Source of the DNA: Terriglobia bacterium
GTDB lineage: Bacteria > Acidobacteriota > Terriglobia > JAJPHL01
Length of the DNA: 64,000 nucleotides
Reading direction: 5' to 3'
Assembly: GCA_021325275.1 (NCBI GenBank)
Contig: JAJPHL010000065.1
Location: forward strand, 1-64,000
The notes below the pieces were generated by a model. The model made no database searches. It was given only the letters and a program-made list of their open reading frames with translations, and was not told the DNA's origin. This document shows positions 4,206 through 64,000 of this stretch, in pieces (within the stretch, counting starts at the first letter, position 1; every line of letters begins with the position of its first letter). The translations under genes and the position numbers were made by a program.

Positions 4206-4378
4206 GCGCCGGAAATGTACAGGCTAGGATGCCTGTCCTACTTCGCTCGGCCGAATCTGTGCAATCTGTGAAATCTGTGGACGGTTTTTCGCGTTCGAAA
4301 ATCAGTGGATCGTAAAGCTTCGTTAAGCTAGGTTAAGCGCAGAACTAATTTCAGGCTTCTGTGTTTAAATCACACCAT

Positions 4379-4432: not shown

Positions 4433-4486
4433 CTTAAATCCCCAGGCGTGTATTTCCAACAACTTCGGTAGGTTCGTTTCGTAATT

Positions 4487-5904: not shown

Positions 5905-6194
5905 TTTTTCTTTCCTCCATGGTCTTTAATGAATCGACTCTCACACTGTTATTTGATCGGCTCAGATTTGGACAACCATTAACGCCCGCCCCAATCAGGC
6001 CGATCATCTACGTGAACCCGAACAAATGATTGGGCCGCTAGCGCCTCGGTAAGAGGCGCCGATAGAACGACTTCGCCCCCCGGCACCGCAGCAGCAGCCC
6101 ACGTGACGGAAAACCGGTCCCCGTTTCGCGCCCGAGTATGCCCACGAGCAGGCTCGGCCGTAGCGGAGGTCCCGCACGAAAGGTGAACACAACG

Positions 6195-7295
6195 ATGCTG
6201 GCCAAACCGCTTCCCAATATCCTGGTGGTTGACGACGAGCCCTCGATCCGCGAATTCCTGACGCGCGCGGTCAGCTACATTGCGCGCGAAGTCGGCGAAG
6301 CATCGAGCGCCAACGAAGCGATCGAATGCATGCGTGGCCGCCAGTACGACTTGATCCTCTCGGACTTGGCCATGGCGGATGGCGACGGCATGGCGTTGCT
6401 GGCGCACGTGCGCGACGCGTTTTGGGACGGCGGTTTCATTTTGATTAGCGGATACGCCACCACGCAGCACGTGATTTCCGCGCTGCGCCAGCAAGCTTCC
6501 GACTTTCTGATCAAGCCCGTGATGCTGGCGGATATTCGCGAGTCGGTGAAGCGCACCTACGCACAAGTATTGGCGCGCCGCGAGGCGCACGCGTATCACG
6601 GAATGCTCGAATCGAGCATCGAGCGGCGCACGCGAGATCTCGACAGCGCGCTGGCCGAGCTGGAATCGAACTATGGCGCGACGCTCGAGGCCTTGGTGGC
6701 CGCGTTGGACGCTCGCGAGCACGAAACCTCCAGCCACTCGTTTCGGGTACGTGCCTACGCCGCACATCTGGCGCGCGAAATCGGCTATCCCGCGGCGTTC
6801 CTTGCTCAGTTGGAGCACGGGGCGCTGTTGCACGACATCGGAAAAATCGCCACCAGCGATTCGATTTTGCTGAAGCCCGGCAAACTCACCGAAGAGGAAT
6901 GGCAAGAAATGCGGAAGCATCCCGTGGAAGGTGAGCGTATCCTGCGTCACGTGGCGTTTCTGGGACCGGCGGCGGTGATCGTCCGCCATCATCATGAGCG
7001 TTACGACGGCCAGGGATATCCCGACGGTTTGGCCGGCGAGGACATTCCGCTTGGTGCGCGCGTTTTCGCCTTCGCCGATACGATGGATGCCATGACGTCC
7101 GATCGGCCGTATCGAAAGGCCGCCGGATTTGACGCCGTGCACCAGGAAATTATCCGCTGCTCGGGCAAACAATTCGATCCGCACATCGCCAAAACGTTCC
7201 TGCGGATTCCCGTGGAGAAATGGCAGGAATTGCGCGCCACGGCCGAAGCGGATTACGCCGCTTCGAGTCGCGTCCTTGAGCCAGTACTTGTGTAG
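6195..7295 (+). CDS. HD-GYP response regulator (c-di-GMP phosphodiesterase)
   Basis: A 366-residue protein. The receiver domain (about 8-120) has VVDDEPS, the acceptor Asp in DLILSDLAMADG, and the Lys in FLIKPV. An HD-GYP domain follows (about 165-345) with the metal-binding HDIGKI and RHHHERYDGQGYPDGL, the latter carrying the G-Y-P signature. Such proteins hydrolyse cyclic di-GMP after phosphorylation. The frame is open upstream to 6138, but I chose the ATG at 6195 because AGGTG precedes it by 9 bases and the earlier residues are not receiver-like. No dedicated kinase is adjacent except the divergent pair at 4487-5904. Confidence 0.92.
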   Translation: MLAKPLPNILVVDDEPSIREFLTRAVSYIAREVGEASSANEAIECMRGRQYDLILSDLAMADGDGMALLAHVRDAFWDGGFILISGYATTQHVISALRQQASDFLIKPVMLADIRESVKRTYAQVLARREAHAYHGMLESSIERRTRDLDSALAELESNYGATLEALVAALDAREHETSSHSFRVRAYAAHLAREIGYPAAFLAQLEHGALLHDIGKIATSDSILLKPGKLTEEEWQEMRKHPVEGERILRHVAFLGPAAVIVRHHHERYDGQGYPDGLAGEDIPLGARVFAFADTMDAMTSDRPYRKAAGFDAVHQEIIRCSGKQFDPHIAKTFLRIPVEKWQELRATAEADYAASSRVLEPVLV

Positions 7296-7506
7296 GGCGT
7301 CCATTCGAGTGCGTTCTCATTAATGCATTTCGGGTTCCAAGATTAGAATCTCCACAAAGCCTTGCGGCAGAAACGTGTAGCAAAAGCTGCCTCGTTGGAG
7401 GTACCTCGGCTAATTCAGGAATTACCCAAAAAGGGAAGGCGAATCGTGCCGAAATGGGCGAGTTGCTGGGGAGACGTACGGAATTTGCCGGACAGTCCTG
7501 GGTCCC

Positions 7507-7549
7507 GAGTCCTGAGTGAAACGCGTAGCTTACTCAGCACTCAGGACTC
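7507..7549. terminator. Hairpin between convergent genes
   Basis: Perfect 12-base arms GAGTCCTGAGTG (7507-7518) and CACTCAGGACTC (7538-7549), with further 'actcagtactcagga' units just after. The element lies in the 282-base gap between the HD-GYP gene (ending 7295) and the convergent esterase (ending 7578). It could stop transcription from both sides, although no U-tract is seen. Such TCC(C/T)GAGTC-type runs are low-complexity intergenic filler in related genomes. Confidence 0.5.
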
Positions 7550-7577
7550 AGTACTCAGGACTACGCTGTTGGCGCGG

Positions 7578-8837
7578 CTATCGATGATTCGGCTGGAACG
7601 TTCCGCCCGTCAAAAGTAGCTGCAACGCTTCCTTTGATCGCGACTGCCACGCCATTTGCTTGTCCGGCGTGCGATTGTTGTGGTCCGATTCGATCATCGG
7701 GATCACTTCCACCGGCGCGTGTACTTGATTCATCGCCGTGAATAGGCCGGCGGGAGCGCAGGTTGTGTCGATGAATCCGATGGCGGCCAGAACGGGAGCT
7801 GCAATGCGCGGCGCGAAATTCACGGTGTCGAAGTAGAGCGCCGTTTCCCGCACCCGCGAATCGCTCATGTTCCAGTTCGGATACGACGTGGAGCGTCCAT
7901 GTGGCACGGCGTTGGAATCGGCGCCGGCCGGTTCGTTCACCAGCACCGCGGTGACACTCTGCGGATGCAGCGCCGCGGTCACCAGACTCTGCTGCCCGCC
8001 CATGCTCGTGCCCGTCAGCACCAGCGTCTGGCGATCCCAAGTGCCGTGACGCGTGATGTAGTCGAGCGCGCGGACGTCGCGCAAATACATGTTCAGGAAA
8101 TACGACGTTTCGCGATCCGTATTTCCCACGGCTTGATAGTTTGCCGGCGCGCCGGTGGCTTGATCGGGCGGCATATCGTGCGAGTCCACGTCGAAGGCGA
8201 GCCAACCTTCGGCCGCCCGGCTCGTCACCGTGGATGTTTGCAGCGCGTAGACGCCGGCCCACTGATAAATCACCAGCGCGGGAAATTTTCCCTCGCGCGC
8301 GGGCTTCGCGAGATAGCCTTGCACGTGCGATCCCAAGCTTTCGAGCGTCACTTGGTACAATTCGACGCCGGCGACCGTCGTGTCGAGCTTTTTCAGCACC
8401 GGATTGATGGGAATTTCGCTCAATGCTTTTAGTTTCGCATCCCAAAACGCGTCGAAATCGGCGGGCCGCGGGACGACCGGTTCGAGTTTTTCAGGTGCGA
8501 CGGCCGCGCCGAAGTGAATCGGCGTGCTTCTCTCTGTTGCGATCTCGCCGTAGATCATCGCCGGTTCGTTCATCGTGATTTCGATGGTGGCCTCGCCGGT
8601 GGAGAGGTCGAGCGGTCCCGAGACGATCGGATCGAGGCCGTTTTCCTTCAGCGAATACGTGAATTTCAGCGGCGCACCGGCTAGGCCCGTGAAGCGCACG
8701 GTCCATCCGGCTTTCTCGCCAACCTTGTAAATCCCGTTCGAGTGATACGGAACGAGCGAGATTGGCAACTCTTGCGCTGCGGCGAACGTCGCGAAGACTG
8801 CCAGCGTTGCTCGAAGAAAAACGGGAAATCTTTTCAT
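7578..8837 (-). CDS. Secreted acetyl-xylan esterase/cephalosporin-C deacetylase-like hydrolase
   Basis: A 419-residue protein with an N-terminal signal peptide (KRFPVFLRATLAVFATFAAAQ), so probably periplasmic or secreted. Residues about 25-110 form a beta-sandwich-like N-terminal domain. The rest is an AXE1-type alpha/beta hydrolase with VLTGTSMGGQQSL (nucleophile Ser in G-x-S-x-G) and GFIDTTCAPAG, which holds the likely acidic residue. The family removes acetyl groups from xylan or related esters. A late MIESDHNNRTPDK carries the probable catalytic His. It is a single gene with no sugar-degradation neighbours. Confidence 0.85.
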   Translation of the reverse strand: MKRFPVFLRATLAVFATFAAAQELPISLVPYHSNGIYKVGEKAGWTVRFTGLAGAPLKFTYSLKENGLDPIVSGPLDLSTGEATIEITMNEPAMIYGEIATERSTPIHFGAAVAPEKLEPVVPRPADFDAFWDAKLKALSEIPINPVLKKLDTTVAGVELYQVTLESLGSHVQGYLAKPAREGKFPALVIYQWAGVYALQTSTVTSRAAEGWLAFDVDSHDMPPDQATGAPANYQAVGNTDRETSYFLNMYLRDVRALDYITRHGTWDRQTLVLTGTSMGGQQSLVTAALHPQSVTAVLVNEPAGADSNAVPHGRSTSYPNWNMSDSRVRETALYFDTVNFAPRIAAPVLAAIGFIDTTCAPAGLFTAMNQVHAPVEVIPMIESDHNNRTPDKQMAWQSRSKEALQLLLTGGTFQPNHR

Positions 8838-8892
8838 AAGCGAGGACTACCGAACAGGAGTTCCGACAAACCCATAGCTATCTCGTCCAGCT

Positions 8893-10458
8893 TTATTTCG
8901 GTAACGCCGCCCTTAATGCGTCTTCCATTAGTTTCTCCGGCGCTTTCTTGCCGGTCCACAAACGAAATTGCTCGAAGGCTTGGGTTAAGAACATTTCTAC
9001 GCCGGAAATCACGTCGATACCTTTACGTTGAGCCAACCGCATCAAGCACGTTGTGGCGGGAGTGTAGACGGTTTCAAAGAGAATCCGCGTGTTCAACTCG
9101 TGCGGTTCGAAAAAACAGCCCGCGACATTTGGCGTCATGCCCAGCGGCGTGGTGTGGATCACGGCGTCGTAGCGTGTGCCGGCGAGCGACTCCCGCGTGA
9201 CAACTTCCGCACCCAACTCGCGCGCCAACTCCTGCGCTTTTTCCGCCGTGCGATTGACGATCGACACGCGGCAGCCCGCTTCGCCCAGCACCGTCACCGC
9301 GGCGCGCGCCGCCCCGCCGGCACCCGCGACCAGTACGCGCGCGCCCGCAAGTTTCAGGCGTTTTTGGAGTGGCCGCAGCAAGCCGATCGCGTCGGTGTTG
9401 TATGCTTTCCAAACGTCGCCACGCCGTACGAGCGTATTGGCAGCGCCGGCACGTTCCGCCGCAGGATCGCGCTCGTCGGCCGCGCGCGCCGCCGCTTCTT
9501 TGTGCGGCATGGTGATACTCAGTCCGGCGAGCCGTGACCGAAACGTCTCCCAGAAACTGACGAAGTCCGCGGCTTCACAGGCGACGTACGTTGCATCCAG
9601 CCCGCGATCGGCCAGCGCGACGTTGTGGATCACCGGCGATAGCGAATGTCCGATGGGATGGCCCACCACGGCGAAGACCCGCGTGCGCTTCCCGATGCGA
9701 TCGGCGCGATACAAGCCGCGCATCAACGTCGCGGGAATCTGCCCGATGCCCGGCACGCCGCTACGTAGTGCCGCGGCATATGTGAAGGGCGATCCTGCGG
9801 CCAGGCACATCACGCGCGTCGGCCGGCCGATTTCGCCCATCGTGAATGCGACCAAATGCCCCCGTCCGTGTGCCAAGAGATCCAGCACAGTGGCATTGTC
9901 CAAAGGATCGTTGGACTGCGTGACGAGTTTGTAATAATCGGCGGGAAAATGGTGCAAGCGCCCCAGCGCCATTTCCAGTCCCGCGGGCGTTTCGCGATAA
10001 TCGTGAAACGAAATCATTACCGGTGCGGCTTTACGCAGCGCGCGCACGGCCGCGTGGCCCAAGTGCTCCGCCGATTCAACCTCGAGATCGACGAGATTCG
10101 ATCCCGCGGCCGCGACCTCGCTGAGAATCTGTAACTGCTCTTCGGCCGATCCCGCGAATTTGCCGCCCGCAGCGATACTACGCAGCGTCACGATCAACGC
10201 GCAGCGCCGCCGGCGCAGGTCGCGCACCAAACGCGCCAGACCGCGAAGGTCCCGCCAAGCGGCGGGACGCAAGAAGTCGAGGCGGAGCTCGAGGAAGCGC
10301 TGCGCCGGCGTGATCCGGGCGATCTCGGCCAGCGCGGCGGCGCGCAGGCGATCAAGACTCGGTCCGGCGACCGTGACGCAGACCTTAGGCAAGCTCCGAG
10401 GCCCGAGGCCCGAGGTTCGAGTCGCTTTGCGGTGTCGATGGAGGAGACCCTCTGGCAT
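8893..10458 (-). CDS. aroDE: Fused 3-dehydroquinate dehydratase (type I) / shikimate dehydrogenase
   Basis: A 521-residue bifunctional enzyme for two consecutive steps of aromatic amino-acid synthesis. Residues about 23-235 are the class I dehydratase (KVCVTVAGPSL...; Schiff-base Lys probably in YYKLVT; loop FTMGEIGRPTRV). Residues about 245-515 are shikimate dehydrogenase: VVGHPIGHSLSPVIHN, catalytic Lys in ITMPHKEAA, NTD in YNTDAIGLL and the NADP loop VAGAGGAARAA. The ATG at 10458 is used. The first 22 residues come from repeat-like intergenic sequence, so a TTG at 10392, right before the enzyme domain, is a real alternative. Confidence 0.95.
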   Translation of the reverse strand: MPEGLLHRHRKATRTSGLGPRSLPKVCVTVAGPSLDRLRAAALAEIARITPAQRFLELRLDFLRPAAWRDLRGLARLVRDLRRRRCALIVTLRSIAAGGKFAGSAEEQLQILSEVAAAGSNLVDLEVESAEHLGHAAVRALRKAAPVMISFHDYRETPAGLEMALGRLHHFPADYYKLVTQSNDPLDNATVLDLLAHGRGHLVAFTMGEIGRPTRVMCLAAGSPFTYAAALRSGVPGIGQIPATLMRGLYRADRIGKRTRVFAVVGHPIGHSLSPVIHNVALADRGLDATYVACEAADFVSFWETFRSRLAGLSITMPHKEAAARAADERDPAAERAGAANTLVRRGDVWKAYNTDAIGLLRPLQKRLKLAGARVLVAGAGGAARAAVTVLGEAGCRVSIVNRTAEKAQELARELGAEVVTRESLAGTRYDAVIHTTPLGMTPNVAGCFFEPHELNTRILFETVYTPATTCLMRLAQRKGIDVISGVEMFLTQAFEQFRLWTGKKAPEKLMEDALRAALPK

Positions 10459-10595
10459 GGATACTAAGTCTTGTAGAATAACATATTTACGCCTCGATCG
10501 CGTGACGGGGGAGTATCAAGTTAATTACCAACGATTCCTCCTAATTCCCCATAGTTCCATTGACTCTTCAGTAGCGGTTTGCTACTTCTTGTAGC

Positions 10596-12248
10596 ATGAA
10601 GCCCTTAGCCGTACTGTGTTTACTCGTCCTTGGTCTGTCCGGCGGCCTAGCCGCGCAGGGCCAGATGTATTCCAGCCCCTCCGGTTTTTCGTTGTCCGTT
10701 CCGGACGGCTGGCAATTGCTCACCAAGGAAGGTCCGCCGCCCAGCCAAGACGTTACCGCGAAGACCAAGTTCAACCCGGCGCGCATGTCGGCCCTCGCCT
10801 ACAGCCCCACCGATCCGCACATCAACTTGAACGTGATCGTGTTGCAGGGCGCGATTCCCATGGACGACGACGCCGCCAAGGGCTATTCACAAATGTTGCA
10901 GGACCAATCGGCGCAAGCGGGCGTGGCGCTGCAAGCGTTCACAGTGGCGCGCCACAACTACGGCGGCCACAACGCGCTGCTGGCCGATTACGATATGGAT
11001 TTCAGCACCTCGAACGGTCCCAATCGCGACCTCGGCAAGGTGCATCAGTGGCAAGTAGTGTTTTCCGGAACCAGCAACACGTATGTTGTGACGTGCTCGG
11101 CGGGAACGGTCGCTTTTCCGACGCTCGCGCCGGTATTTGAACGGGTGTTGGCTTCCATGAATTATCCAGGCGCGATGTCCGCGCCGGCACTCTCGCCGAC
11201 GCTCGCGCCGGCCCCGGCGGCTGCGGCTCCGGCTCAGCCTGCGATGCAGTCAGCGCCGCAAGCCCCAGTTCAGGCCCCAACTCAAGCCCCAGCTCAAGCA
11301 ATGATGCAGCCCGTCGCAATGCAGCAGCCTGCCATGCAACCCGCCATGTCGCAAGAGATGGCGCCCGCACCGCAGCGCGTGGATTCCGGCGAAGGACTCC
11401 TGCCGCGTAAAGTTGGCGACGTTCGCGTGCGTCCGCCGCATCCGGTTCATATGTACACGCCCAAGGACGCCGACGTTTACTGCGCCGGGTTCATCACCAC
11501 CAAGCCGCCGGTCAGCGGACTTTACGTGATTTCGGGGGCGGAAGGTGGTTTGCAAGAAATCTTCACCGATCGCGACACGATTTACTTGAGCAAGGGCGCA
11601 GGCTACATCGTGCGTCCCGGCGGCGACTACATCTTGTTGCGCCCGATCATCGATCCCAACTACCGGGTGGAATGGTTCAAGGACCAGAACAAGCTCATCA
11701 AGAGTCTGGGCACGGTTTACACGGAAATCGGAACGATCCGCGTGGGCATCGTGCATGAATACGTGGCCACCGCCAAGGTAACGCATACCTGCGAGGAAAT
11801 CCAGCCGGGCGACATCGCCGTTCCTCTCGATCTGAAACCGACTCCTCCGGCGCCTACCGGTGTTTTCGATGAATTCGCGCCGGCCACCAACAAGAACGAC
11901 GGCCGAATCGTCACCGGGAAGAATTTTGAAGGCACGCTCGGCGCCGGCAAGACCGTGTATCTGAGCATCGGCGCCGAACAAGGTGTGGACGTGGGCCAGA
12001 ATTACCGCATCTTCCGGACGTTCGCCACCGCGTCGGGAGATCCCAATCGCGCGTACCTGGATCAGACGCCGCAAAAACTCTTCGGCATGCGCACGAACTA
12101 CAAGCTCTCGCAGAGCGAGCGCGATGTTTTGCCGCGCACGGTGCTCGGCGAACTGGTGATCCTCTCGGTGAACGGCCATTCGGCCACCGCGCTGATTACG
12201 ATGTCGGGCGCGGAGATTTTCCCGGGCGATCAGGTGGAATTGAAGTAG
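10596..12248 (+). CDS. Secreted protein with PsbP-like N-terminus and Pro/Gln/Ala-rich linker
   Basis: A 550-residue exported protein with signal peptide LAVLCLLVLGLSGGLAAQG. Residues about 25-190 look like a PsbP/DUF1795-type domain (YSSPSGFSLSVPDGWQLLTKE). Residues about 195-265 are a low-complexity linker of Ala-Pro-Gln-Met repeats. The C-terminal half has repeated beta-rich segments ending GHSATALITMSGAEIFPGDQVELK, resembling the C-terminal domain of FlgT-like cell-surface proteins. Its role is unknown; an envelope scaffold or binding protein is plausible. It is a single gene, divergent from aroDE. Confidence 0.75.
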   Translation: MKPLAVLCLLVLGLSGGLAAQGQMYSSPSGFSLSVPDGWQLLTKEGPPPSQDVTAKTKFNPARMSALAYSPTDPHINLNVIVLQGAIPMDDDAAKGYSQMLQDQSAQAGVALQAFTVARHNYGGHNALLADYDMDFSTSNGPNRDLGKVHQWQVVFSGTSNTYVVTCSAGTVAFPTLAPVFERVLASMNYPGAMSAPALSPTLAPAPAAAAPAQPAMQSAPQAPVQAPTQAPAQAMMQPVAMQQPAMQPAMSQEMAPAPQRVDSGEGLLPRKVGDVRVRPPHPVHMYTPKDADVYCAGFITTKPPVSGLYVISGAEGGLQEIFTDRDTIYLSKGAGYIVRPGGDYILLRPIIDPNYRVEWFKDQNKLIKSLGTVYTEIGTIRVGIVHEYVATAKVTHTCEEIQPGDIAVPLDLKPTPPAPTGVFDEFAPATNKNDGRIVTGKNFEGTLGAGKTVYLSIGAEQGVDVGQNYRIFRTFATASGDPNRAYLDQTPQKLFGMRTNYKLSQSERDVLPRTVLGELVILSVNGHSATALITMSGAEIFPGDQVELK

Positions 12249-12314
12249 CGTCCGGCGGGTTTTGGAACACGGAATAACACGGAGAACTACGGCCTCCGCC
12301 GGCTGAACCGCGGC

Positions 12315-12872
12315 TCATTCCCCGAAGATTTCCGCTGAGAATACTTGAATCCGCGCGCCCTCTCGCCACGCGCCTGCGGGAAGTCCCGCCTTGCGGCACG
12401 TTTCGTCGAGAAACTGCGTGACGCTCCAGTTTCGCGACGATGCCACTTGCGGCAAGAGCAATCCTCTGGCGAAATCGCGCGTGATCATCACACCGTCACG
12501 GCCGATAACGATTCCCGATTCCACCGCATCGGCCGCCACATCCAGAAACGGCGAGAGCACCGAGATCTCGATTTCAACTCCGGCGACTTCGTGCGGCATC
12601 AGAGGAGGGAATCGCGGATCGTGGAGCGCGGCATCGCACGCCGCTTGCGCCACGGCTTCGTCCAGCGGCAGGCGCGCCGCCGTCGATCCGATGCATCCAC
12701 GGAGATCGCCGTGCGCGTGCAAGCTCACGAAAACCGCGCCAGGTTCGCGCAATCGCTCGACAGATCCCGTTGGCGTTGAGGCGTGACCCTTGGCGGCGGC
12801 TTCGGTGATGGCGGCACGCGCGATTAATAGCAAGCGCCGGCGTTCGGCGTCGGTGAGCGCCGTGTCAGGCAT
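12315..12872 (-). CDS. AMMECR1/AmmeMemoRadiSam system protein A-like
   Basis: A 185-residue AMMECR1-domain protein. Conserved features are FVSLHAHGDLRGCIGSTAA (the family's RGCIG core), DPRFPPLMPHEV, IEISVLSPF, GRDGVMI and LLLPQVA. The ATG at 12872 is chosen because it opens directly into the domain. The frame stays open upstream only as an overlap with pgsA. It starts 2 bases after the pgsA stop, so the two are an operon. The biochemical activity of bacterial members is not settled, and the radical-SAM and Memo partners are not seen here. Confidence 0.88.
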   Translation of the reverse strand: MPDTALTDAERRRLLLIARAAITEAAAKGHASTPTGSVERLREPGAVFVSLHAHGDLRGCIGSTAARLPLDEAVAQAACDAALHDPRFPPLMPHEVAGVEIEISVLSPFLDVAADAVESGIVIGRDGVMITRDFARGLLLPQVASSRNWSVTQFLDETCRKAGLPAGAWREGARIQVFSAEIFGE

Positions 12873-12874
12873 TT

Positions 12875-13480
12875 TCAATCCTCGCGGCGGCGGCGTTGCC
12901 GGCGCAGCGCGCGCAGCAATTCCACCCGGCCTTTGCGCTGCTTCACTTCTTTGTCGACCGTCTTCCAGAAAGCCGCGAAGTAGAGCACCGCCGAAATCAG
13001 CGCGAGAATCACCACCAGGTAGAGCGAAATCTGCGCCACCCAGTAGGCGATGCGCACCAGCGGCACCAGCAACAGCGAGACGATGGCGACAATCTGCATC
13101 ACCATCTTGGTCTTGCCCCAATCGGACGCCGCGATCGTGGTGCCCGCCGCTTGCGCGATGCTGCGCAGTCCCGTCACCGCGAGTTCGCGCCCCACGATGA
13201 TCAACACCATCCACGCGGCGACTTGGCGCGTCTCCACCATCGCGATCAATACGGAGGACACCAGCAGCTTGTCGGCAATGGGATCAAGCAGCATGCCGAT
13301 GTTCGACACTTGTTTCAGGCGGCGCGCCAGATAGCCGTCGAACCAGTCGGTGGCGGCGGCCAATAGCACGATAGTCACGGCGATGATTTCCTTATGCGGA
13401 AACGTCTGCGTCAGCAACACCGTGAGCAGCAACGGCACAAGGAAGATTCGCGCCAGCGAAAGGGCATTGGGGAGATTCAT
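12875..13480 (-). CDS. pgsA: CDP-diacylglycerol-glycerol-3-phosphate 3-phosphatidyltransferase
   Basis: A 201-residue integral membrane enzyme making phosphatidylglycerol phosphate, the committed step to phosphatidylglycerol. The CDP-alcohol phosphotransferase signature D-G-x2-A-R-x8-G-x3-D-x3-D is intact (FDGYLARRLKQVSNIGMLLD, then PIADK). Several hydrophobic helices follow. The start is placed at the ATG opening MNLPNALSLARIFLVPLL, the normal N-terminus; an upstream GTG at 13513 would add 11 unrelated residues. A basic tail (RALRRQRRRR) ends the protein. The AMMECR1-like gene follows immediately. Confidence 0.93.
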   Translation of the reverse strand: MNLPNALSLARIFLVPLLLTVLLTQTFPHKEIIAVTIVLLAAATDWFDGYLARRLKQVSNIGMLLDPIADKLLVSSVLIAMVETRQVAAWMVLIIVGRELAVTGLRSIAQAAGTTIAASDWGKTKMVMQIVAIVSLLLVPLVRIAYWVAQISLYLVVILALISAVLYFAAFWKTVDKEVKQRKGRVELLRALRRQRRRRED

Positions 13481-13592
13481 CGCAACGTTTGATTCTGCGT
13501 ATGTTGCTACCAACTATAAAGCCGCGAGGGAACGCGAGTCAAACGCGCCTGGCCGTCACTCTGCCACGACACTCTGGAAACTGCCCCGCGCA

Positions 13593-13787
13593 TGTGCAAA
13601 ACCGCTGCTCTCTGATCCGCGAATTGCCCAGCAACTGTGCAAAATCGCACACTTCCCGCATCCACTGTGTTTTCAGTAGCTTACTGCCGAAATAGAGTCC
13701 CGATGGGCCGTGGAAAACAATTTCTTAATATTATGTTGGGAATCGGCTTGAGAGCGATTTCCACAGCCTTTTGCACAGCTTTCCACA
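13593..13787. promoter_or_regulatory. Cluster of DnaA-box-like 9-mers with an AT-rich stretch
   Basis: The 313-base gap between hflX and pgsA holds three exact TTTTGCACA sites, which fit TTWTNCACA: 13593-13601 and 13636-13644 on the minus strand, 13769-13777 on the plus. Close variants sit at 13709-13717 (CGTGGAAAA), 13757-13765 (ATTTCCACA) and 13779-13787 (CTTTCCACA). An AT-rich run (aacaatttcttaatattatg) lies at 13716-13735. This could be a DnaA-binding regulatory or titration site, or part of an origin. No dnaA, dnaN or other origin-linked gene is in the window. Confidence 0.4.
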
Positions 13788-41943: not shown

Positions 41944-41975
41944 TTACTCGTAACGCAATGCCGTAAGCGGTTCCA
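41944..41975. repeat. Right copy of the 32-base repeat, genuine 3' end of the ADOP permease gene
   Basis: This copy is the last ten codons plus stop of the permease gene on the minus strand, so here the sequence is functional. It stands in the same orientation as the left copy at 38693-38724, a direct repeat 3.25 kb apart enclosing the ATPase and TPR genes. Integrative elements that enter at gene 3' ends leave such duplications, though no integrase is present. Confidence 0.75.
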
Positions 41976-44637
41976 CTCGCGACGCGCGACGCGCCGGCCA
42001 GTATCCGGCCGCCCACGCCACGCATCCCAGTGTCATCACTGTCGACGCCGCGGTTAGCGGATCGGCGGGCGTTACGCCGTACAGTAACGCATCGAGCGCA
42101 CGTGCCGCGGTCCCCAATACAAACATCGACGCAAGGATTCCGGCGAACGTGCCCAGTGCGGCGAGTCTTGCGGTTTCGCGAAGCACCAGTGCGCGTACGG
42201 CAGCCGGCGTCGCGCCGAGCGCGATGCGAATGCCCATCTCCGGCGTGCGGCGAGTTACCGAGAACGAAAGCACGCCGTACAATCCGGTGGCGGAAAGCAG
42301 CAGCGCGAGTGCGCCGAATGCCGTGCTCAATTCCGTTACCAGGCGATCTTGGCGCAAGTCCTCGGAAATGATTTCCTCAACCGTTTGCGCGCTGCCAAGC
42401 GGCATATCCGGCGCGATCGATTGCACGGCTTCGCGCATCGGCCGTTCCACGGCGGAAGGATTCGAAGTGCGCACGAACAAAAAGTGCAGCGGTCCGCCCA
42501 AATTGACTTGGAACGGGAAGTAAATCGTCGCGGCGTTCTCATCGCGCAGGTGGGCGTACTTGGCGTCCTTCACCACGCCCACCACTTCCCATTTGTACGC
42601 CGCGGGATCTTCACCGAATCCCATGCGGCGGCCCAGGGGATTCGCAGCGCCGAACAGGCGCCGCGCCAATGTTTCGTTGATCACGATGGCTTTGGAGTCC
42701 TTCACCATTTCGGTGCGTTGGAAATCGCGGCCGGAAAGGAGCGTCATACCGAGCGTGGAAAAATATCCCGGCGTGACGGTGTTGAAAATCACGCGGCGAT
42801 CGGTTTGGTTCTTGGTCGTGAATCCTTCCGCGCCGATACAACAGATTCCAGCCGTGCCGCCGCCGAACAACGGCATCAAGCCGACGCTCGATCCCTCGAC
42901 GCCCGGAATCGCGGCGATTGCTTGTTCCACGCGCTCGTAAAACGGCAGCAATTGATTCGTCTTGTAGCCGGCGGCGGTGGTGTCGATTCCGAGTTGCAGG
43001 AATCCTTCGCGCGACACCCCGGCGTCGAAGCTGCGCAAGTTGTGAAAGCTGCGCACCAGCAATCCTGCGGCGATCACGAGCGCCGCGGTGAACGCAAATT
43101 GCGCCACCACCAGCACTTTGCCCCAACGCAGTTCGGCGCGTGCGCCGGTGGCGGGTCCTTTCAGCGCGTCCATCGGATCGGTGCGCGCCGTGCGCAGCGC
43201 CGGCGCGAGTCCAAAGAGCAACGCGGTGACCATCGAGATGCCGACTGTGAACGCCAGCGCGCGCGAATCGGGTTGCAGGTCGAGGAACATGGGCGCGCGG
43301 CGTGACGACGCGAGCGCGACGAGCAACTCGCTGCCCCAGCGTCCCGCGAGCCAACCGGCGGCGCCGCCGAGAAGGGCGAGCAAGGTGTTTTCCGTGATCA
43401 ATTGCCGGGCCAGTCTTCCGAGCGACGCGCCTGTAGCGGCGCGCACGGCCATCTCGCGATGGCGCGCGAGTCCACGTGCCAGTAGCAGGCTCGCGATGTT
43501 CGCGCAAGCGATCAGCACCACCAGCGCGGCGATCACCATCAACACGCGAAGCGGCGCCGAGAACTGGGCGCGCAAATCGGAAAATCCGCGTCCGCCCGAT
43601 TCCACGGTGAACGCACTGACTTCCTTGTACATCCGAACCTTGTCGCTATCGGGCTGCGCTTGCAGTTGCTTGATCGCTACGCCGAGCGCGGCCTCGGCTT
43701 GTTGCGGCGTCACGCCCGGCTTCAGCCGGCCCATCCAATGAAGGAACGTGATGAAAGGACTGTTCAGGTAGTCGTCGCCGCGAAAAAGTTGCGGTTGCAG
43801 CGTGACCGGCGCCCACAAGTCTTGCGACTCACCTACGCGATCGCCGAAAAACTCCGCGGGACCGACGCCGATCACCGTGAGCGGCACGCGATTTACGGTG
43901 AGCGTGCGGCCGACGATGCCGGGGTCACGGCCCCAGCGCCGCACCCAGTAGCGATAGCTGATCACCGCGACGCGCTCCGGCGCGCCAAGTTTATCGTCAG
44001 AAAGTCCGATCACGCGGCCCGCCGCGGGAGTCACGCCCAGTGTCGAGAAAAATGTGCCGGAGACAAGTTGGACTTGAATCTTTTCCGTTCCGTCGAGATC
44101 CATGCGCGTGCCGTCGTCAGCCGCGTAGTAGGACTCGAACAACGAAGGCAGGCTGGGCTGGGTGCCAGCGAGGTCGCGATACAGCCCGTAGTTGAGATCG
44201 TCGTTCGGCTTGTGATTGAGTCCATAGGAAATCACGCGCATCAAGGTTTGAGGCTGGCGTACCGGCAGTTCTTTTAGCAACAGCGCGTTCAGCACCGTGA
44301 AAATCGCGCAGTTTGCGCCGATTCCCAGCGCCAGCGTAACGATGGCCGTCAGCGCGAATCCGGGACTCTTGCGCAATCCGCGACAACCATAGCGGGTATC
44401 TTGCCAAAGCGTCTCGATCAGCCGCGTGCCGCGGGCGTCGCGGCTTTCTTCCTTCCATTGCTCCATGCCACCGAATTCACGCGCCAGTTCGCGGCGCGCG
44501 TCTGCTGACGTCATGCCGCGGCTCAAGTAGGTCGCCATCAAGTGGTCCTGATGCGCGCGCATTTCTTCATCCAATTCGGACTCCACCACGCGGCGTTGGA
44601 AGAGCGATCGCAGACGAAACAAGAGATCGGCGAACAT
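41944..44637 (-). CDS. ADOP-type ABC permease (MacB/FtsX fold)
   Basis: An 897-residue permease of the acidobacterial duplicated orphan permease class. It begins with a cytoplasmic helical region (ELDEEMRAHQDHLMATYLSRGM, REFGGMEQWKEESRD) typical of ADOPs. A first helix (ALTAIVTLALGIGANCAIFTVLNALLL) and a large MacB-like periplasmic domain follow. FtsX-type helix groups sit at about residues 355-455 and again near the C-terminus. The ending EPLTALRYE is standard. No ATPase gene is attached. ATG 44637 follows a perfect AGGAGG. The PadR gene ends 8 bases upstream, so PadR likely controls it. Substrates of ADOPs are unknown. Confidence 0.93.
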   Translation of the reverse strand: MFADLLFRLRSLFQRRVVESELDEEMRAHQDHLMATYLSRGMTSADARRELAREFGGMEQWKEESRDARGTRLIETLWQDTRYGCRGLRKSPGFALTAIVTLALGIGANCAIFTVLNALLLKELPVRQPQTLMRVISYGLNHKPNDDLNYGLYRDLAGTQPSLPSLFESYYAADDGTRMDLDGTEKIQVQLVSGTFFSTLGVTPAAGRVIGLSDDKLGAPERVAVISYRYWVRRWGRDPGIVGRTLTVNRVPLTVIGVGPAEFFGDRVGESQDLWAPVTLQPQLFRGDDYLNSPFITFLHWMGRLKPGVTPQQAEAALGVAIKQLQAQPDSDKVRMYKEVSAFTVESGGRGFSDLRAQFSAPLRVLMVIAALVVLIACANIASLLLARGLARHREMAVRAATGASLGRLARQLITENTLLALLGGAAGWLAGRWGSELLVALASSRRAPMFLDLQPDSRALAFTVGISMVTALLFGLAPALRTARTDPMDALKGPATGARAELRWGKVLVVAQFAFTAALVIAAGLLVRSFHNLRSFDAGVSREGFLQLGIDTTAAGYKTNQLLPFYERVEQAIAAIPGVEGSSVGLMPLFGGGTAGICCIGAEGFTTKNQTDRRVIFNTVTPGYFSTLGMTLLSGRDFQRTEMVKDSKAIVINETLARRLFGAANPLGRRMGFGEDPAAYKWEVVGVVKDAKYAHLRDENAATIYFPFQVNLGGPLHFLFVRTSNPSAVERPMREAVQSIAPDMPLGSAQTVEEIISEDLRQDRLVTELSTAFGALALLLSATGLYGVLSFSVTRRTPEMGIRIALGATPAAVRALVLRETARLAALGTFAGILASMFVLGTAARALDALLYGVTPADPLTAASTVMTLGCVAWAAGYWPARRASRVEPLTALRYE

Positions 44638-44645
44638 GTTTCCTC

Positions 44646-44981
44646 CTACGCGGTCCCGAGCACCGCATCGACGGCCGCCGTGAGCGTTTTCCAAGCGCCG
44701 GTTTCCGTTTGAAGTTGCTTGCGTCCCGCCACCGTGAGTTCGTAAAACTTGGCGCGCCGGTTATTGTCGGACGTGCCCCACTTCGCCTTGATCCATCCGC
44801 GGCGTTGCAAACGATGCAGCGCCGGGTAGAGCGATCCCTGTTGAATGCGTAGAACGTCCGAGGAGATTTGCTGGATGCGCACGGCGATGCCCCATCCGTG
44901 CTGGGGCTCGAGCGCCAGCGCCTTGAGGATCAGGAGATCGAGTGTGCCCTGCGGTAAGTCGATGCTTGGTGGGTTTGGCAT
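44646..44981 (-). CDS. PadR-family transcriptional regulator
   Basis: A 111-residue winged-helix repressor. The PadR signature [28 protein letters not shown] is followed by [21 protein letters not shown], containing the recognition helix and wing. [18 protein letters not shown] forms the wing and dimerisation helix. PadR genes sit directly before ADOP permease genes throughout Acidobacteriota. It is the first gene of the operon, and an inverted repeat 11 bases upstream of its start probably binds it. Confidence 0.95.
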
Positions 44982-59131: not shown

Positions 59132-60643
59132 TTATTTTTGACCCTTCACCGCCGCCACCGCTGCCTGGACCTGCGGATCGTCGGCCGCCGCCGCTTGATC
59201 CCCTCGCGCGACACCGAACGCCAAATTCGAAATCTCCACTTTCAGCCGCCGCCGCAAGTAGGGGCGATTCGCTACCCACAACTGTTCGTTTAACGACGCG
59301 CCTTGTTTCAACAGCCACAGTTTGAAATCGTCGAGCATTTCCGGCGACACATCGAAGGAATCGGGAATGTCCTTGTGCTGCGTCATGTAAAAGCGCGCGA
59401 AATCGAGAAATGCGTTGGCGTTTTCGAGATACGCCTGCCAGTCGTTGTCCACGGTGTGCGATCCCTCTACAACGATGTCCGGTGTGATCCCACCCGGACC
59501 CTTGATCGCTTTCGTAAACGCCAAACCCGGCGTCGGCTTTTGGATCGTGCGGCCGGCCGGCGTGAAATATTGCGCGGCAGCGAGCGCCAAACCCGTGCCT
59601 TCGGTCAGTGAGTACACACTTTGCACGATTCCCTTGCCGTAGGTCTGCGTCCCGACGAGCTTCGCGCGTTTGTGATCTTGCAGCGCACCCGCCAGGATCT
59701 CCGCGGCGCTGGCGCTGTTCTTGTTCACCAGCACCGCCATCGGGAAATCCCACGGTTTGGCATCTTCGCGGACCTTGTAGACTTTTTCTTTCTGCGTGCG
59801 ACCGCGCGTGCTCAACACCGTCGAGCCGGCGGGCAGGAAGAATCCCGCGATCTCCACCGCCGCATCGACCAGGCCACCGTGATTCTCGCGCATGTCGAAC
59901 ACCAGCGACTTCATCCCCGCCGCTTGTAGTTTTTCGATGGCCGCGTGAAGCTGATCGGCGGACGTGCTCTCAAATCCTTTCAGCCGCACGAAACCGATGC
60001 CGGGCTCCAGCATGTAGGCGCGATCGACGCTTGGTTCGTCCATTTCCGCCGGCGTCACGATGATCGTCTGCATCGCCGCCGACCCGGGACGCATCACGCG
60101 CAGTGTCGCTTTGTCGCGCTTGGCTTCGGTGAGCAGCTCCACAAGCTGCTCCATGTTGAGATATTCGATGCGATAGCCGTTCACTTCCAGGATTTCGTCA
60201 CCCGGTTGGATGCCGGCCTTCGCCGCCGGCGCGTTGACCTGCGCTTCGACCACAATCACGCGTCCGGGCGCCACCGTGACGATCGTGCCGAATCCTTCAA
60301 TCTTGGAGCTTTGCTGTTGTTGAAGCTGGTGGAACTGGTCGGGATCGAAGAATACCGTGTAGGGATCAAGCGTGTGCAGCATGCCGGGGATCGCGGCCGA
60401 ATAGATCAACCTTTCGTCAATAGGATCGGCGTAGTTTTCCTCCACCGCCGCGTAGGCCATCGCGAATCGGCGGAGTTGCCTGTCGACCTCGTCGGCGTAT
60501 TCGGGCTGGGGCGCCGGTGGCGTGGGGCGAATCTGCTGGGACCCGGGCGCCAGCATCCGGATCGCTCCGTAACTCCACACGGCGAGGAGCGCAAGCACAG
60601 CGAGGCGCAGGAGTCGACGGCCGGGCCGTGCGAGGAAATTCAC
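59132..60643 (-). CDS. S41 (carboxyl-terminal processing) peptidase
   Basis: A 503-residue periplasmic protease anchored by one helix (LLRLAVLALLAVWSYGAI). A PDZ domain (about 115-195) has VAPGRVIVVEAQ, AKAGIQPGDEILEVNGYRI. The protease core has SLVFDMRENHGGLVDAA, the nucleophile Ser in NKNSASAAEILAGAL and the Lys in GTQTYGKGIVQ. It resembles CtpA/Prc, which trims periplasmic proteins. The C-terminal extension after ITPDIVVEG (about 120 residues) is unusual in content. It is a single gene. Confidence 0.93.
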   Translation of the reverse strand: MNFLARPGRRLLRLAVLALLAVWSYGAIRMLAPGSQQIRPTPPAPQPEYADEVDRQLRRFAMAYAAVEENYADPIDERLIYSAAIPGMLHTLDPYTVFFDPDQFHQLQQQQSSKIEGFGTIVTVAPGRVIVVEAQVNAPAAKAGIQPGDEILEVNGYRIEYLNMEQLVELLTEAKRDKATLRVMRPGSAAMQTIIVTPAEMDEPSVDRAYMLEPGIGFVRLKGFESTSADQLHAAIEKLQAAGMKSLVFDMRENHGGLVDAAVEIAGFFLPAGSTVLSTRGRTQKEKVYKVREDAKPWDFPMAVLVNKNSASAAEILAGALQDHKRAKLVGTQTYGKGIVQSVYSLTEGTGLALAAAQYFTPAGRTIQKPTPGLAFTKAIKGPGGITPDIVVEGSHTVDNDWQAYLENANAFLDFARFYMTQHKDIPDSFDVSPEMLDDFKLWLLKQGASLNEQLWVANRPYLRRRLKVEISNLAFGVARGDQAAAADDPQVQAAVAAVKGQK

Positions 60644-60879
60644 CGGACAATTCTACCGCGATCCACTGCTCCGCGCCGAGAGGTAATCCTGGCGGTTCAT
60701 TCAGCCGATAGAAAACTGTGGCGCGATCAGGTGTTTTTTTCTGTGAAAAGCGTTACCGGCATGGTCATTCGGTGACACCCAGTGTAAGGATGACACGTCT
60801 ATTGATGTAGAAGGTTTGCTGAAGGGTAAGAAAACGCTAGGCAGGGAGTTGGCAAGCAACGTGCTCGGAGGAAAGTGTT

Positions 60880-60987
60880 ATGACGGCGACCGCAATCGGC
60901 TTGGTGGTAGCGGTAATGTTGCTCATCAGCATTACCAGCCCCGTGCCGGAAGAAATTCCCGATGAGTTGAGCGAAGAGCGCAAGTAG
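60880..60987 (+). CDS. 35-residue single-helix membrane peptide
   Basis: The frame is a hydrophobic stretch (AIGLVVAVMLLISI) followed by TSPVPEEIPDELSEERK, an acidic tail. An excellent GGAGG lies 7 bases before the ATG. The amino terminus is very short, so it is a classic small membrane protein with one helix and a soluble tail. It pairs with a second one at 61095. Too short for normal gene finders, and not recognised. Confidence 0.6.
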   Translation: MTATAIGLVVAVMLLISITSPVPEEIPDELSEERK

Positions 60988-61094
60988 CGCTCGTTCCGGC
61001 GAAGCGCGCAAGTCGCGACCGTCGGCGCTATGCTCGTTCCGCTGCGCAACAGCGGCGAGTCTGCCAAAACCCGCCGCGCCACGGAGGGTTCCAA

Positions 61095-61184
61095 ATGTTG
61101 ATCGTAGCCGTGTTAAGTTTTCTCGTCGCCGCCCTGTTCATCGTCAGCATCACCACGCCTGAGTCGGGCGATCCCAACAGCTAA
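61095..61184 (+). CDS. 29-residue single-helix membrane peptide
   Basis: The peptide has a hydrophobic helix (LIVAVLSFLVAALFIVSI) and ends TTPESGDPNS. It has GGAGGG 6 bases before the ATG. It resembles the neighbour at 60880 in layout: a short helix, then I-S-I-T-(S/T)-P and an acidic tail. The two are 107 bases apart and could be diverged duplicates. A role as a subunit or regulator of a membrane complex is typical of such peptides. Confidence 0.6.
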   Translation: MLIVAVLSFLVAALFIVSITTPESGDPNS

Positions 61185-61301
61185 TCCCTCGAACGTCCGC
61201 GCCGCCTACCCAGGTACTCACAGTACCCGTAGTGCGCTTGGTTTATTGGATTTACTCAGAATCCCGAAAGGGAACTGGGCCCGGATTGTCGTTCTTGCCT
61301 T

Positions 61302-62138
61302 GTGATGAACAACACAAGGATTCGCTGGCGCGCCCTGATATTCCCCGGCTTGAGTTGCCTTTATCTGGCGCTGATCTATGGACTCCCAACCGCCGCCGCG
61401 CTATCGATGTGGCGTGTTGAACGATGGACCGCGCCCGTCGCCCCGGCCGCGTGGATTGTGGTTTTTCTCGTCGTGGCGGGAGTGCTCAGCCGTCCGCATC
61501 AAGCGTCGGTGCGGCCCGGAAAGTTTCGCCGCGATCTCAACGATCCCGACTACTTTCATCGCCGCCTCTACGGACTTTGCTGGACGGCGGTCTGCTACAA
61601 CACGCCGGCCTACTACATTTGCCTGAGCATTCCGGTGCTCAAGTGGCTTACCTTTCGCCTGTTCGGCTATCGGGGATCGATGAATTTCACGGTTTATCCC
61701 GATACTTGGATACGCGATCTTCCATTGTTGGAATTTGAAGATGGCGTGTACGTGTCGAATCGCGCCACGCTGGGCACCAACATCGTGCTCGGCAACGGGA
61801 CGTTGCTGGTAGGCGGAATCAAGCTGCGCCGCGACGCTTTGGTCGGACACTTGGCGGTGCTTGGTCCCGGCGTCGAGATGGAGGCGGACTCCGAGGTCGG
61901 TGTTGGCGCAGCGATTGGGTTGCGCGCTAAGCTGCGGCACGGGGCGGTTGTGGGTGCGCGTTGCGGCATCGCGCATGGCGTGAGCGTGGGGCGCAACGTT
62001 ACCATCGGCCCGCACTCCTACGTGGACTCCGCGGCGATCATCCAGGACGACGTGCATCTTCCGGCGCGTTCGACGGTGGCTTCGCGCTCGGTCGTTCGTG
62101 CCGACACCGATTCGGAAGCCAGGCGGGCCTGCGCATGA
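61302..62138 (+). CDS. Hexapeptide-repeat (LbetaH) acyltransferase-like membrane protein
   Basis: A 278-residue protein with two N-terminal membrane helices (about 12-65) and possibly a third at about 95-118. From about 140 it is a left-handed beta helix (VSNRATLGTNIVLGNGTLLVGG, LVGHLAVLGPGVEMEADS, GAVVGARCGIAHGVSVGRNVTIGP). Such folds are found in acyltransferases and in the terminal domain of some non-ribosomal peptide synthetases. It overlaps the downstream lyase gene by 4 bases. It starts with GTG 61302 or ATG 61305. Confidence 0.8.
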   Translation: MMNNTRIRWRALIFPGLSCLYLALIYGLPTAAALSMWRVERWTAPVAPAAWIVVFLVVAGVLSRPHQASVRPGKFRRDLNDPDYFHRRLYGLCWTAVCYNTPAYYICLSIPVLKWLTFRLFGYRGSMNFTVYPDTWIRDLPLLEFEDGVYVSNRATLGTNIVLGNGTLLVGGIKLRRDALVGHLAVLGPGVEMEADSEVGVGAAIGLRAKLRHGAVVGARCGIAHGVSVGRNVTIGPHSYVDSAAIIQDDVHLPARSTVASRSVVRADTDSEARRACA

Positions 62139-63757
62139 CAACCCTTCCCAACCATTCGATGCAACACGGAACGCTCTCTCTCGGGCCAGGGGACCTGACC
62201 CCACGCGCCGTGTGGACGGCTGCGAGGAAGCTGTCGGAAGCAGTGCCCAATCTCCGGGTATCCATTGACGGGGGCACGCGCGAGCGCATAGCCCGCGCGG
62301 CGAATGCGGTTGTGTCGCGGGCCGCGGGAACGTCGCCGGTTTATGGATTGAACACCGGCGTCGGCGCACTTCGTCATGTGGTGATCGAACGCGATCATCT
62401 GGCGCAACTGCAAGTGAACCTGCTGCGCTCGCACGCCTGCGGTGTGGGCGAGGCGTTGCCGCGCGCCACCGTGGCGGCCATGTGGATCCACTGGATGAAC
62501 TCCGCGGCGCAGGGACATCGTGGCGTGCGCCTGGAAACGGTGGACGCCTGCATCGATCTGCTGAATCGCGGCGTGCTGGCGACCGTTCCGTCGCGCGGAA
62601 GCGTGGGCGCGTCCGGCGATCTCGCGCCGGCTGCGCACGCGGCGCTTTTGCTGATCGGCGAAGGAGTCTGCTCGATGCCTGATTCCGGCGAGATCCGCAC
62701 GATGCCGGCGGCGGAAGCGTTGCGCCGGACAGGTCGCGCGCCCCTCACGCTGGGGGCCAAAGAAGCGCTCAGCCTGATCAACGGCACGCATCTTACCACC
62801 GCGCTGGCCTGCCAAGTTTGGACCGAAGCCGAGACATTGTGGCGCGTCGCGACCTTCGCCGCTGCGTTGAGTACTTACGGTTTTCGCGCCAATCCGCAGG
62901 TGACGCGCGCCGAAGTGCTCGACATGCACCATCCCGCGACGCTCTACGCGGGATTACGCAAGCAGGAATGGTTCTCCGGCGCAACGAATCCGCCCGTTTT
63001 TCGGAATTATCAGCAAGACCCGTATTGTTTCCGCTGTACGCCGCAGGTTCACGGCGCGGTGTGGAAGGAAATCGAGCAATCTGAGGAGTGGATCGTAGAG
63101 GAATTGGGCGCGACCACCGACAATCCTGTGGTGCTCGAGACGGGCGAGTTCGCGCATGGCGGAAATTTTCACGCGATTTTTCCGGCGCGCGTGCTCGACC
63201 GGCTGGCTTCGGCGCTCACGCAACTGGCGTCCATTTCCGAGCGCCGCACGAATCTGGGCATGGACTCGCGCAAGACGGGCCTGCCCGACTTTCTCACGCC
63301 GGAAGGCGGATTGAACTCCGGACTGATGATGACGCAGACCACCGCCGCCGCGCTGGTCAGCGAGTGCAAAACGCTCAGTTTTCCCGCCTCCGTCGATTCG
63401 ATTCCGACGAATTGCGATCAGGAAGATCACGTGTCGATGGGGCCCATCGCCGGTTTGAAAGCGGTGCGGATCTGCGGAAACGCGCGGGACGTGCTGGCCA
63501 TCGAGATTCTCGCGGCCTGCCAAGCGGTGCATCTGCGTGGGGCTGAGGTTTTGCCGCCGCGCTTGCGCCGCGTCTACGAAGCGATCCGCCAGACGGTTCC
63601 TCCCATCGAGTGCGATCGCACGTTCGCCGAAGACATTCGCGCGATCGCCGGGATGATCGAAGCGTCGATCGAGGACGACGCGCTTTTCGGCCATTTCGCG
63701 AATCTCGATGACGAAAGGGAAGCCCATGCGACTAGCGATTCGCAACATCGCGCATGA
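62135..63757 (+). CDS. MIO-type aromatic amino-acid ammonia-lyase (HAL/PAL family)
   Basis: A 540-residue lyase. The cofactor-forming Ala-Ser-Gly is in SVGASGDLAPAAHAA. Active-site segments are VYGLNTGVGAL (Tyr loop), LLRSHACGVGE, NGTHLTT, QDPYCFRCTPQVHGAVW and NCDQEDHVSMG. The SHACGVG and RCTPQVHG patterns point to histidine ammonia-lyase, but a hut operon is absent. Instead the gene sits between an acyltransferase-like gene and an ABC permease gene, suggesting a biosynthetic role. Lengths and the C-terminal extension fit the family. It overlaps the next gene by 32 bases. Confidence 0.9.
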   Translation: MTTLPNHSMQHGTLSLGPGDLTPRAVWTAARKLSEAVPNLRVSIDGGTRERIARAANAVVSRAAGTSPVYGLNTGVGALRHVVIERDHLAQLQVNLLRSHACGVGEALPRATVAAMWIHWMNSAAQGHRGVRLETVDACIDLLNRGVLATVPSRGSVGASGDLAPAAHAALLLIGEGVCSMPDSGEIRTMPAAEALRRTGRAPLTLGAKEALSLINGTHLTTALACQVWTEAETLWRVATFAAALSTYGFRANPQVTRAEVLDMHHPATLYAGLRKQEWFSGATNPPVFRNYQQDPYCFRCTPQVHGAVWKEIEQSEEWIVEELGATTDNPVVLETGEFAHGGNFHAIFPARVLDRLASALTQLASISERRTNLGMDSRKTGLPDFLTPEGGLNSGLMMTQTTAAALVSECKTLSFPASVDSIPTNCDQEDHVSMGPIAGLKAVRICGNARDVLAIEILAACQAVHLRGAEVLPPRLRRVYEAIRQTVPPIECDRTFAEDIRAIAGMIEASIEDDALFGHFANLDDEREAHATSDSQHRA

Positions 63758-64000
63758 CCGCACACGTTTCCTGCTGACCGTCGCGGGCATTGCGTTTTCC
63801 GCGTTCCTGATGGTCTTTCAAGGCAGCCTGCTCTGCGGATTCGAGCGGGCATCCTCGCGCGTGATCGATTCGGTGGACGCCGACCTTTGGGTGATGGCGC
63901 ACGGGGTCCAAGCGTTCGACTTCGCGCCGCCGCTGCCCAGCGATTACTACGGAAAAATCCGCGGCGTGCCCGGCGTGCGGTCGGTGCGCCGCATGGCCAG
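63726..64000 (+). CDS. ABC transporter permease (MacB/DevC-like), cut by window end
   Basis: The first 91 residues of an FtsX/MacB-type permease. The start is typical: RLAIRNIAHDRTRFLLTVAGIAFSAFLMVFQ. The first helix is followed by a periplasmic domain beginning with VIDSVDADLWVMAHGVQ, as in DevC-type exporters. ATG 63726 lies inside the 3' end of the lyase gene. It implies an export step for the product of the preceding enzymes. Confidence 0.85.
   Translation, partial: MRLAIRNIAHDRTRFLLTVAGIAFSAFLMVFQGSLLCGFERASSRVIDSVDADLWVMAHGVQAFDFAPPLPSDYYGKIRGVPGVRSVRRMA

Follow-up and report, generated by a model that had tools for sequence, protein, structure and literature searches.

A diverged aromatic amino acid lyase of predicted histidine type in a five-gene operon with a DevBCA-like exporter in a Terriglobia bacterium

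A compact five-gene operon joining a diverged lyase of the histidine ammonia-lyase (HAL) type to a tripartite ATP-binding cassette (ABC) exporter was identified in the draft genome (6.86 Mb) of a Terriglobia bacterium of the phylum Acidobacteriota. The stretch of DNA analyzed (64,000 nucleotides; hereinafter referred to as the window) comprises bases 1 to 64,000 of a 69,578-base contig (C53), and contig and window coordinates are identical. The window contains the first three genes of the operon, encoding an acyltransferase-like hexapeptide-repeat membrane protein (278 aa; 61302..62138), an aromatic amino acid lyase dependent on 4-methylideneimidazole-5-one (MIO) and predicted to be of the L-histidine type (540 aa; 62135..63757), and a DevC-like ABC exporter permease of the FtsX/MacB_PCD type (63726–64829, of which 63726..64000 lies in the window). 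The remaining genes, for an ABC ATPase (64822–65517) and a HlyD/CusB-type adaptor (65514–66566), were assigned from open reading frames (ORFs) and Pfam beyond the window, and the operon ends inside the contig. We tentatively favor, at somewhat less than an even chance, the reading that the five genes are a rare cassette for making and exporting a small molecule, with histidine being diverted to a urocanate-type product that is possibly acylated.

All five genes are on the forward strand and overlap by 4, 32, 8, and 4 bases in order. The first two of these overlaps had been reported in the original prediction, made from the window alone, and were confirmed from the coordinates, the second with a permease start at 63726 that is backed by two relatives whose alignments begin at the same methionine. 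That prediction had also placed a MacB/DevC-like exporter after the lyase and anticipated further genes to the right of the window. Two such genes were found, encoding the ATPase and the adaptor that complete the exporter, and the completed permease contained both FtsX and MacB_PCD. Genes for hutU, hutI, or histidine transport, named beforehand as neighbors that would speak against a biosynthetic locus, were absent from the extension to the right, and no hut gene was found between 54630 and the contig end in the ORF list or by family profile scans.

The lyase matched Pfam Lyase_aromatic (PF00221; 4.7e-143, 477.7 bits against a cut-off of 27.3), and the Ala-Ser-Gly motif that had been described as intact was located at A159-S160-G161, which together place the protein in the MIO family. 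Alignment with Pseudomonas putida HAL and with 55 further lyases from the phylum showed that it retained Tyr70, Ser99-His100, Ala-Ser-Gly 159–161, Asn216, Gln294, Tyr297, Arg300, Phe345, Met398, and Glu430, that is, all the HAL catalytic and histidine-recognition residues checked, with the Ser-His motif and Glu430 as recognition features. In the part of a study on GkHAL dealing with these residues, the equivalents of Y70, H100, N216, and E430 are described as essential, since the enzyme becomes inactive when they are changed, and histidine recognition is attributed to the SH motif (PMC11432326). The flexirubin enzyme FlxA, a tyrosine ammonia-lyase (TAL), is described in the corresponding part of its report as HAL-like at its first motif and as carrying the residue of TAL or phenylalanine ammonia-lyase at its second (PMC3992019). 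In the window lyase, the Ser-His motif and the catalytic Glu are both HAL-like, and a TAL-like lyase of the phylum (L029) has Gln in place of Glu430. This Glu is taken here to represent the second motif in the sense used for FlxA.

Departures from HAL were also observed, namely a Gln-to-His change beside the NGT motif (His219, position 198 in P. putida HAL) and an altered loop before QDPY. Among NCBIfam models, the lyase scored 486 bits against hutH, compared with 315 for aminomutase and 284 for TAL. An AlphaFold2 model (pLDDT 85.1, 20-row alignment) was closest in the PDB to P. putida HAL (1b8f), with TAL, tyrosine aminomutase, and ergothionase so close behind in TM-score that the fold alone cannot decide the substrate. 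Since every checked catalytic and recognition residue is kept, conversion of L-histidine to urocanate, rather than a reaction with Phe or Tyr, is the likeliest activity predicted from sequence. The aromatic-acid product of the original prediction, as far as it implied Phe or Tyr, was thus replaced by an imidazole (histidine) one on the basis of these residues.

The window lyase is a second, diverged copy and not the catabolic HutH, because a canonical HutH and the hutU-hutI-ftcD genes are located on two other contigs. The canonical enzyme (C17:16690–18126), the other lyase of the genome, scored 662.4 bits against hutH, whereas the window lyase fell below the equivalog cut-off (TIGR01225; 486.0 vs 539.15 bits). 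hutU (933.8 bits), hutI (434.2), and ftcD (385.7) follow one another on contig C72, and the window lyase is not linked to hutU, hutI, or hutG. The earlier statement that it sits outside any hut operon therefore held, with none nearby and a full separate hut pathway kept in the genome. This pathway is itself dispersed, the HutH gene on C17 (L064, 6654–8165) being unlinked to the C72 genes (L140, 2548–6999); next to the HutH gene is an ORF with the look of a glycosyltransferase.

In a tree of the lyases of the phylum, the canonical HutH was nested within its class, while the window lyase was isolated on a branch of 2.25 (median 0.18) near the root beside TAL-like L029, a joining of long branches that the tree program warns may be false. 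In a broader tree including HutH of several phyla, a tyrosine aminomutase, and an aryl-polyene-type lyase, its position on the HAL side was weakly supported (84/73); its end branch was 2.2–2.25 across the two trees. Grouping with catabolic HutH, which had been set in advance as a test, thus gave a very long branch among HAL rows with weak support. In approximately unbiased (AU) tests, neither joining the lyase to the HutH of its own class (p-AU 0.075) nor joining it to the TAL-like aminomutase and aryl-polyene-type rows (p-AU 0.225) was rejected. The window lyase departed at 19 of the 121 alignment columns that were conserved in 88% or more of the rows, with a median of 2 per row and 25–41 in three clearly divergent rows; divergence of this kind is as expected after a change of role. 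L029, encoded in a relative within the class (G035; L192, 7892–9385), is a TAL/aminomutase-like lyase with His-Leu for Ser-His and Asn-Gln-Asp for Gln-Glu-Asp, and groups with a Pseudoalteromonas lyase.

The first gene of the operon encodes a protein matching Pfam Hexapep (PF00132; 1.2e-13, 50.6 bits against a cut-off of 27). Hydropathy peaks within residues 11–34 and 44–62 mark two hydrophobic segments near the N terminus. From residue 175 onward, an unbroken series of about 12 hexapeptide-like units forms a C-terminal left-handed beta-helix, to which the PDB matches were limited. A single-sequence model (pLDDT 38) was unusable. All NCBIfam matches were below cut-off, including NeuD-type sugar acetyltransferase (50.8 against 160.8 bits), LpxD (34 against 242.5), and the Pls/PosA terminal domain of nonribosomal peptide synthetases (NRPS; TIGR02353, 19.8 against 423.1). 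The likeness to an NRPS terminal domain noted in the original prediction is therefore real but weak; it extends over 65 residues, and the window protein differs in being free-standing, with neither an adenylation nor a carrier domain. From its fold class, the protein may function in acyl transfer.

The permease, ATPase, and adaptor genes make up a complete DevBCA-like tripartite ABC exporter. The N-terminal 97 aa of the permease scored 22.9 bits against the DevC equivalog (TIGR01185; cut-off 290.35), the complete permease having been scanned by Pfam only. A permease scan yielded 47 loci, all from Acidobacteriota, in 45 of which the three genes are kept together; the other two (L142 and L176) are truncated where their contigs end. 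The permease was 50–52% identical to those of the Acidobacteriota relatives G326 and G391, and 45–51% identical to those of 24 loci which, with a twenty-fifth (43%, cut by a contig end), form a subclade (L141–L164, L176). Within the fetched flanks, which varied in length and were in some cases short, a hexapeptide relative adjoined the exporter in none of the 47 loci, and a lyase in one (L179, with a distant exporter) and in none of the subclade.

The neighbors of the subclade exporters were of various kinds; among those in 9 of the 25 loci were an FAD-oxidase pair, an LPG-synthase-type gene, and a fusion of an AMP-ligase with an aminotransferase-type (oxoamine-synthase-like) domain. The nearest plasmid permeases (36–38% identical) were those of Methylosinus pMSC49a, Beijerinckia pBIND02, and a Nitratidesulfovibrio plasmid, all with the order permease-ATPase-adaptor. 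The first two lie within clusters of type I polyketide synthase (PKS), ketoacyl synthase III (KAS III), and phosphopantetheinyl transferase genes, and the third in a nif-linked region. The type I PKS clusters of Methylosinus and Beijerinckia are presumably heterocyst-glycolipid-like (hglE). Because related exporters adjoin PKS/KAS III/phosphopantetheinyl transferase, AMP-ligase/oxoamine-synthase, LPG-synthase-type, and FAD-oxidase genes, an amphiphilic cargo is plausible by analogy.

Some of these loci showed features of their own. In L161 (2159–5809), an AMP-binding ligase is fused to a class I/II aminotransferase (oxoamine-synthase-like) directly upstream of the related exporter, and is possibly part of a lipid-amine pathway. 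L144 (511–12856) and 15 similar loci among L145–L160 and L176 formed a conserved signaling-exporter island; the L144 row runs from a methyltransferase, TonB receptor, YfiR-like protein, hybrid kinase, response regulator, and EAL/GGDEF protein to the exporter. L179 (Terriglobia SRVP_8; 4665–13673; permease 33% identical) carries a major facilitator superfamily (MFS) transporter and an MIO lyase about 1.9 kb from its exporter. It was rejected as a second lyase-exporter case, as two reverse-strand genes intervene and the lyase follows the MFS gene. Nor does its lyase group with the window lyase; it scored 547.6 bits against hutH, just over the cut-off, and fell together with L030 and L033 in a lyase clade of its own within the class.

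In the favored reading, the lyase would deaminate L-histidine, or less probably another aromatic amino acid, to trans-urocanate. The hexapeptide protein, anchored at the inner membrane, would carry out acyl transfer, with a partner derived from urocanate or histidine as acceptor or donor. The product would leave through a tripartite pump formed by the permease, the ATPase, and the adaptor together with a TolC-type channel of the outer membrane whose gene would lie elsewhere. The overlapping row of five genes and the coverage of histidine catabolism by HutH on C17 and hutU-hutI-ftcD on C72 speak for this reading. An acid of the urocanate kind must be activated before it is coupled to another molecule, and no CoA ligase, adenylation domain, ketosynthase, or carrier protein was found in the five-gene operon; the "amidated or acylated aromatic acid" of the original prediction therefore went beyond what the genes provide. 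Because the operon has no ligase and the genome no type I PKS, the product either needs enzymes encoded elsewhere or is simpler than had been proposed, such as unmodified urocanate or a compound formed when an activated donor gives up its acyl group. A more specific form of the reading, in which a neofunctionalized HAL supplies urocanate, the hexapeptide protein conjugates it (or an activated form made elsewhere), and the DevBCA-like pump delivers it to the outer envelope or outside by a route free of PKS and NRPS, is improbable.

Several results weigh against the favored reading. Beyond the missing activating enzyme, a genome-wide search with PF00109 gave four matches in frames of 404–480 aa, two strong (frames of 425 and 480 aa) and two weak, and none is a type I PKS. 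The one NRPS condensation domain of the genome is on contig C7, unlinked to the operon, near proteins of adenylation-thiolation-thioesterase (A-T-TE) and T-TE composition. Residue motifs are imperfect predictors of substrate, FlxA being a TAL with a HAL-like first motif in the part of its report concerned (PMC3992019). P. putida HAL departs at 18 of the 121 conserved columns, nearly as many as the window lyase, and, together with the counts in the divergent rows, this means that the number of departures is in itself no proof of new function. The nearest upstream gene was a signaling gene (cluster c3) in 16 of the 25 subclade loci; the upstream genes in these 16 are of signaling kinds (kinase, response regulator, EAL/GGDEF) instead of biosynthetic enzymes, and the exporter is thus not tied to biosynthesis. 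Finally, the gene set was not encountered again in any of the other Acidobacteriota searched, so that joint function of the genes cannot be demonstrated by conservation.

These searches scored the best few candidates per genome. The hexapeptide protein gave no match in 395 other genomes of the phylum (E <= 1e-15), in 338 others of the class, partly overlapping with the 395 (E <= 1e-10), or in 72,556 plasmid records (1e-5); in a further set of 60 relatives, the strongest hit reached 9.6e-7 and was confined to the hexapeptide part. The best match to the lyase in the 395 genomes was 3.6e-108 (46% identity), none reached E <= 1e-104 in the 338, and a single-sequence scan of genome contigs, whose patterns detect close relatives only, found no relative of it. 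A candidate in G035 near an adaptor-like stretch was rejected, since after flank extension no hexapeptide, lyase, permease, or adaptor relative was present among its predicted genes; its neighbor reads by eye as a dihydrodipicolinate synthase.

Three other explanations were considered. The lyase may be an accessory HutH adding histidine-degrading capacity and feeding urocanate to the C72 enzymes, its place beside the exporter being an accident of insertion. The intact HAL residues, the fold nearest to HAL, the weak placement among HAL rows, and the AU result for the class HutH fit this explanation, and dispersed hut genes are normal in a genome whose canonical HutH is itself not beside hutU. 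The overlapping frames on both sides of the lyase, the presence of that canonical HutH, the score below the hutH cut-off, and the great distance from every HutH row argue against it, and we consider it unlikely, although the likeliest of the three. Slightly more doubtful is a different substrate or reaction, in which Phe, Tyr, or a modified histidine, or 2,3-aminomutase chemistry, would supply the exported product with an aryl acrylate or a beta-amino acid. The changes at His219 and before QDPY, the precedent of FlxA, and the AU result for the aminomutase and aryl-polyene-type rows leave room for it; both motifs are nevertheless HAL-type, Glu430 is kept where L029 has Gln, and the aminomutase and TAL models score below hutH.

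The least probable of the three is that the genes are co-transcribed and functionally separate, with a general exporter of envelope lipids or drugs sharing only a promoter with the lyase and the hexapeptide protein (e.g., a sugar or lipid acetyltransferase). The highly varied neighbors in the exporter subclade and the 47 loci, which lack an adjacent lyase or hexapeptide relative save for the distant lyase of L179, are in accordance with such an arrangement. On the other side, overlapping frames joining three unrelated functions would be unusual unless these were useful together, and the hexapeptide protein, like the exporter, is located in the membrane.

Compared with known systems, the window lyase shares with HutH (TIGR01225; P. 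putida HAL, 1b8f/1gkm) the fold, the MIO Ala-Ser-Gly, the Ser-His motif, the catalytic Glu, and other active-site residues, and differs in its divergence at many conserved columns and its junction with an exporter. For the imidacins of Stigmatella aurantiaca (imd cluster), the part of the report describing the pathway presents HAL-made urocanate as a biosynthetic building block, extended by a type I PKS, with the HAL encoded far from the cluster (PMC11301661). Here, by contrast, the lyase is inside the operon, and both an imidacin-like PKS and HglE-type lipid export were rejected for this genome, as it has no type I PKS. FlxA and the lyase of a Pseudoalteromonas plasmid (L213) resemble the window lyase in being MIO lyases in biosynthetic rows, that of L213 adjoining an acyltransferase. 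FlxA, as far as its cluster is described, differs in being a TAL with a CoA ligase in that cluster (PMC3992019), and the L213 lyase in grouping away from HAL rows, with no DevBCA-type pump seen beside it. The L213 row (1–1753), acyltransferase, aromatic ammonia-lyase, thioesterase, is an independent acyltransferase/lyase pair. With the DevBCA and HgdBC glycolipid exporters and the PKS-linked exporters of pMSC49a and pBIND02, the window operon shares the permease, ATPase, and HlyD-type adaptor, and with the plasmid exporters also their order; the low permease identity and the PKS genes set the latter apart. MIO lyases in biosynthesis (flexirubin; aminomutases) and DevBCA-like exporters are known separately, and their combination was not found in the open-licence PMC literature: the titles and abstracts retrieved on HAL and MIO lyases, clusters, exporters, Acidobacteria, and substrate residues contained no description of a HAL-exporter operon.

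The operon is closed by a convergent gene (66544–67905; ORFs, Pfam), followed past 67905 by a RhaT-like gene (Pfam). On its left, across an intergenic stretch (60644..61301), lies a divergent gene for an S41 (C-terminal processing) peptidase on the reverse strand (59132–60643; TIGR00225, 249.8 bits), and farther to the left are trigger factor-, ClpP-, ClpX-, Lon-, and Rho-type genes. The operon promoter is probably in this intergenic stretch; the promoter scan gave no sigma-70-type site there, and promoter and terminator scans together gave nothing exceeding chance level. Elsewhere in the window, a large permease of 916 residues with two MacB_PCD and two FtsX stretches is encoded at 41944–44694, with no ABC-transporter ATPase among the scanned genes to its right. 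The NRPS region on C7 (L202; G000:C7:96001–115000, 6–10958) encodes T-TE and A-T-TE proteins, a free carrier protein, a family 2 glycosyltransferase, and a condensation-A-T-TE protein.

If the lyase is merely an extra HutH, the locus is ordinary. If the favored reading holds, a diverged second HAL locked to an exporter operon would be a dedicated urocanate supply line. The improbable PKS- and NRPS-free route, if true, would yield a new class of exported urocanate conjugate and, to our knowledge, the first dedicated HAL-exporter operon; ultraviolet absorption is a property of urocanate, and the exported product could absorb ultraviolet light or act as a signal. Seen in one genome, the locus bears on whether Acidobacteriota make exported imidazole compounds.

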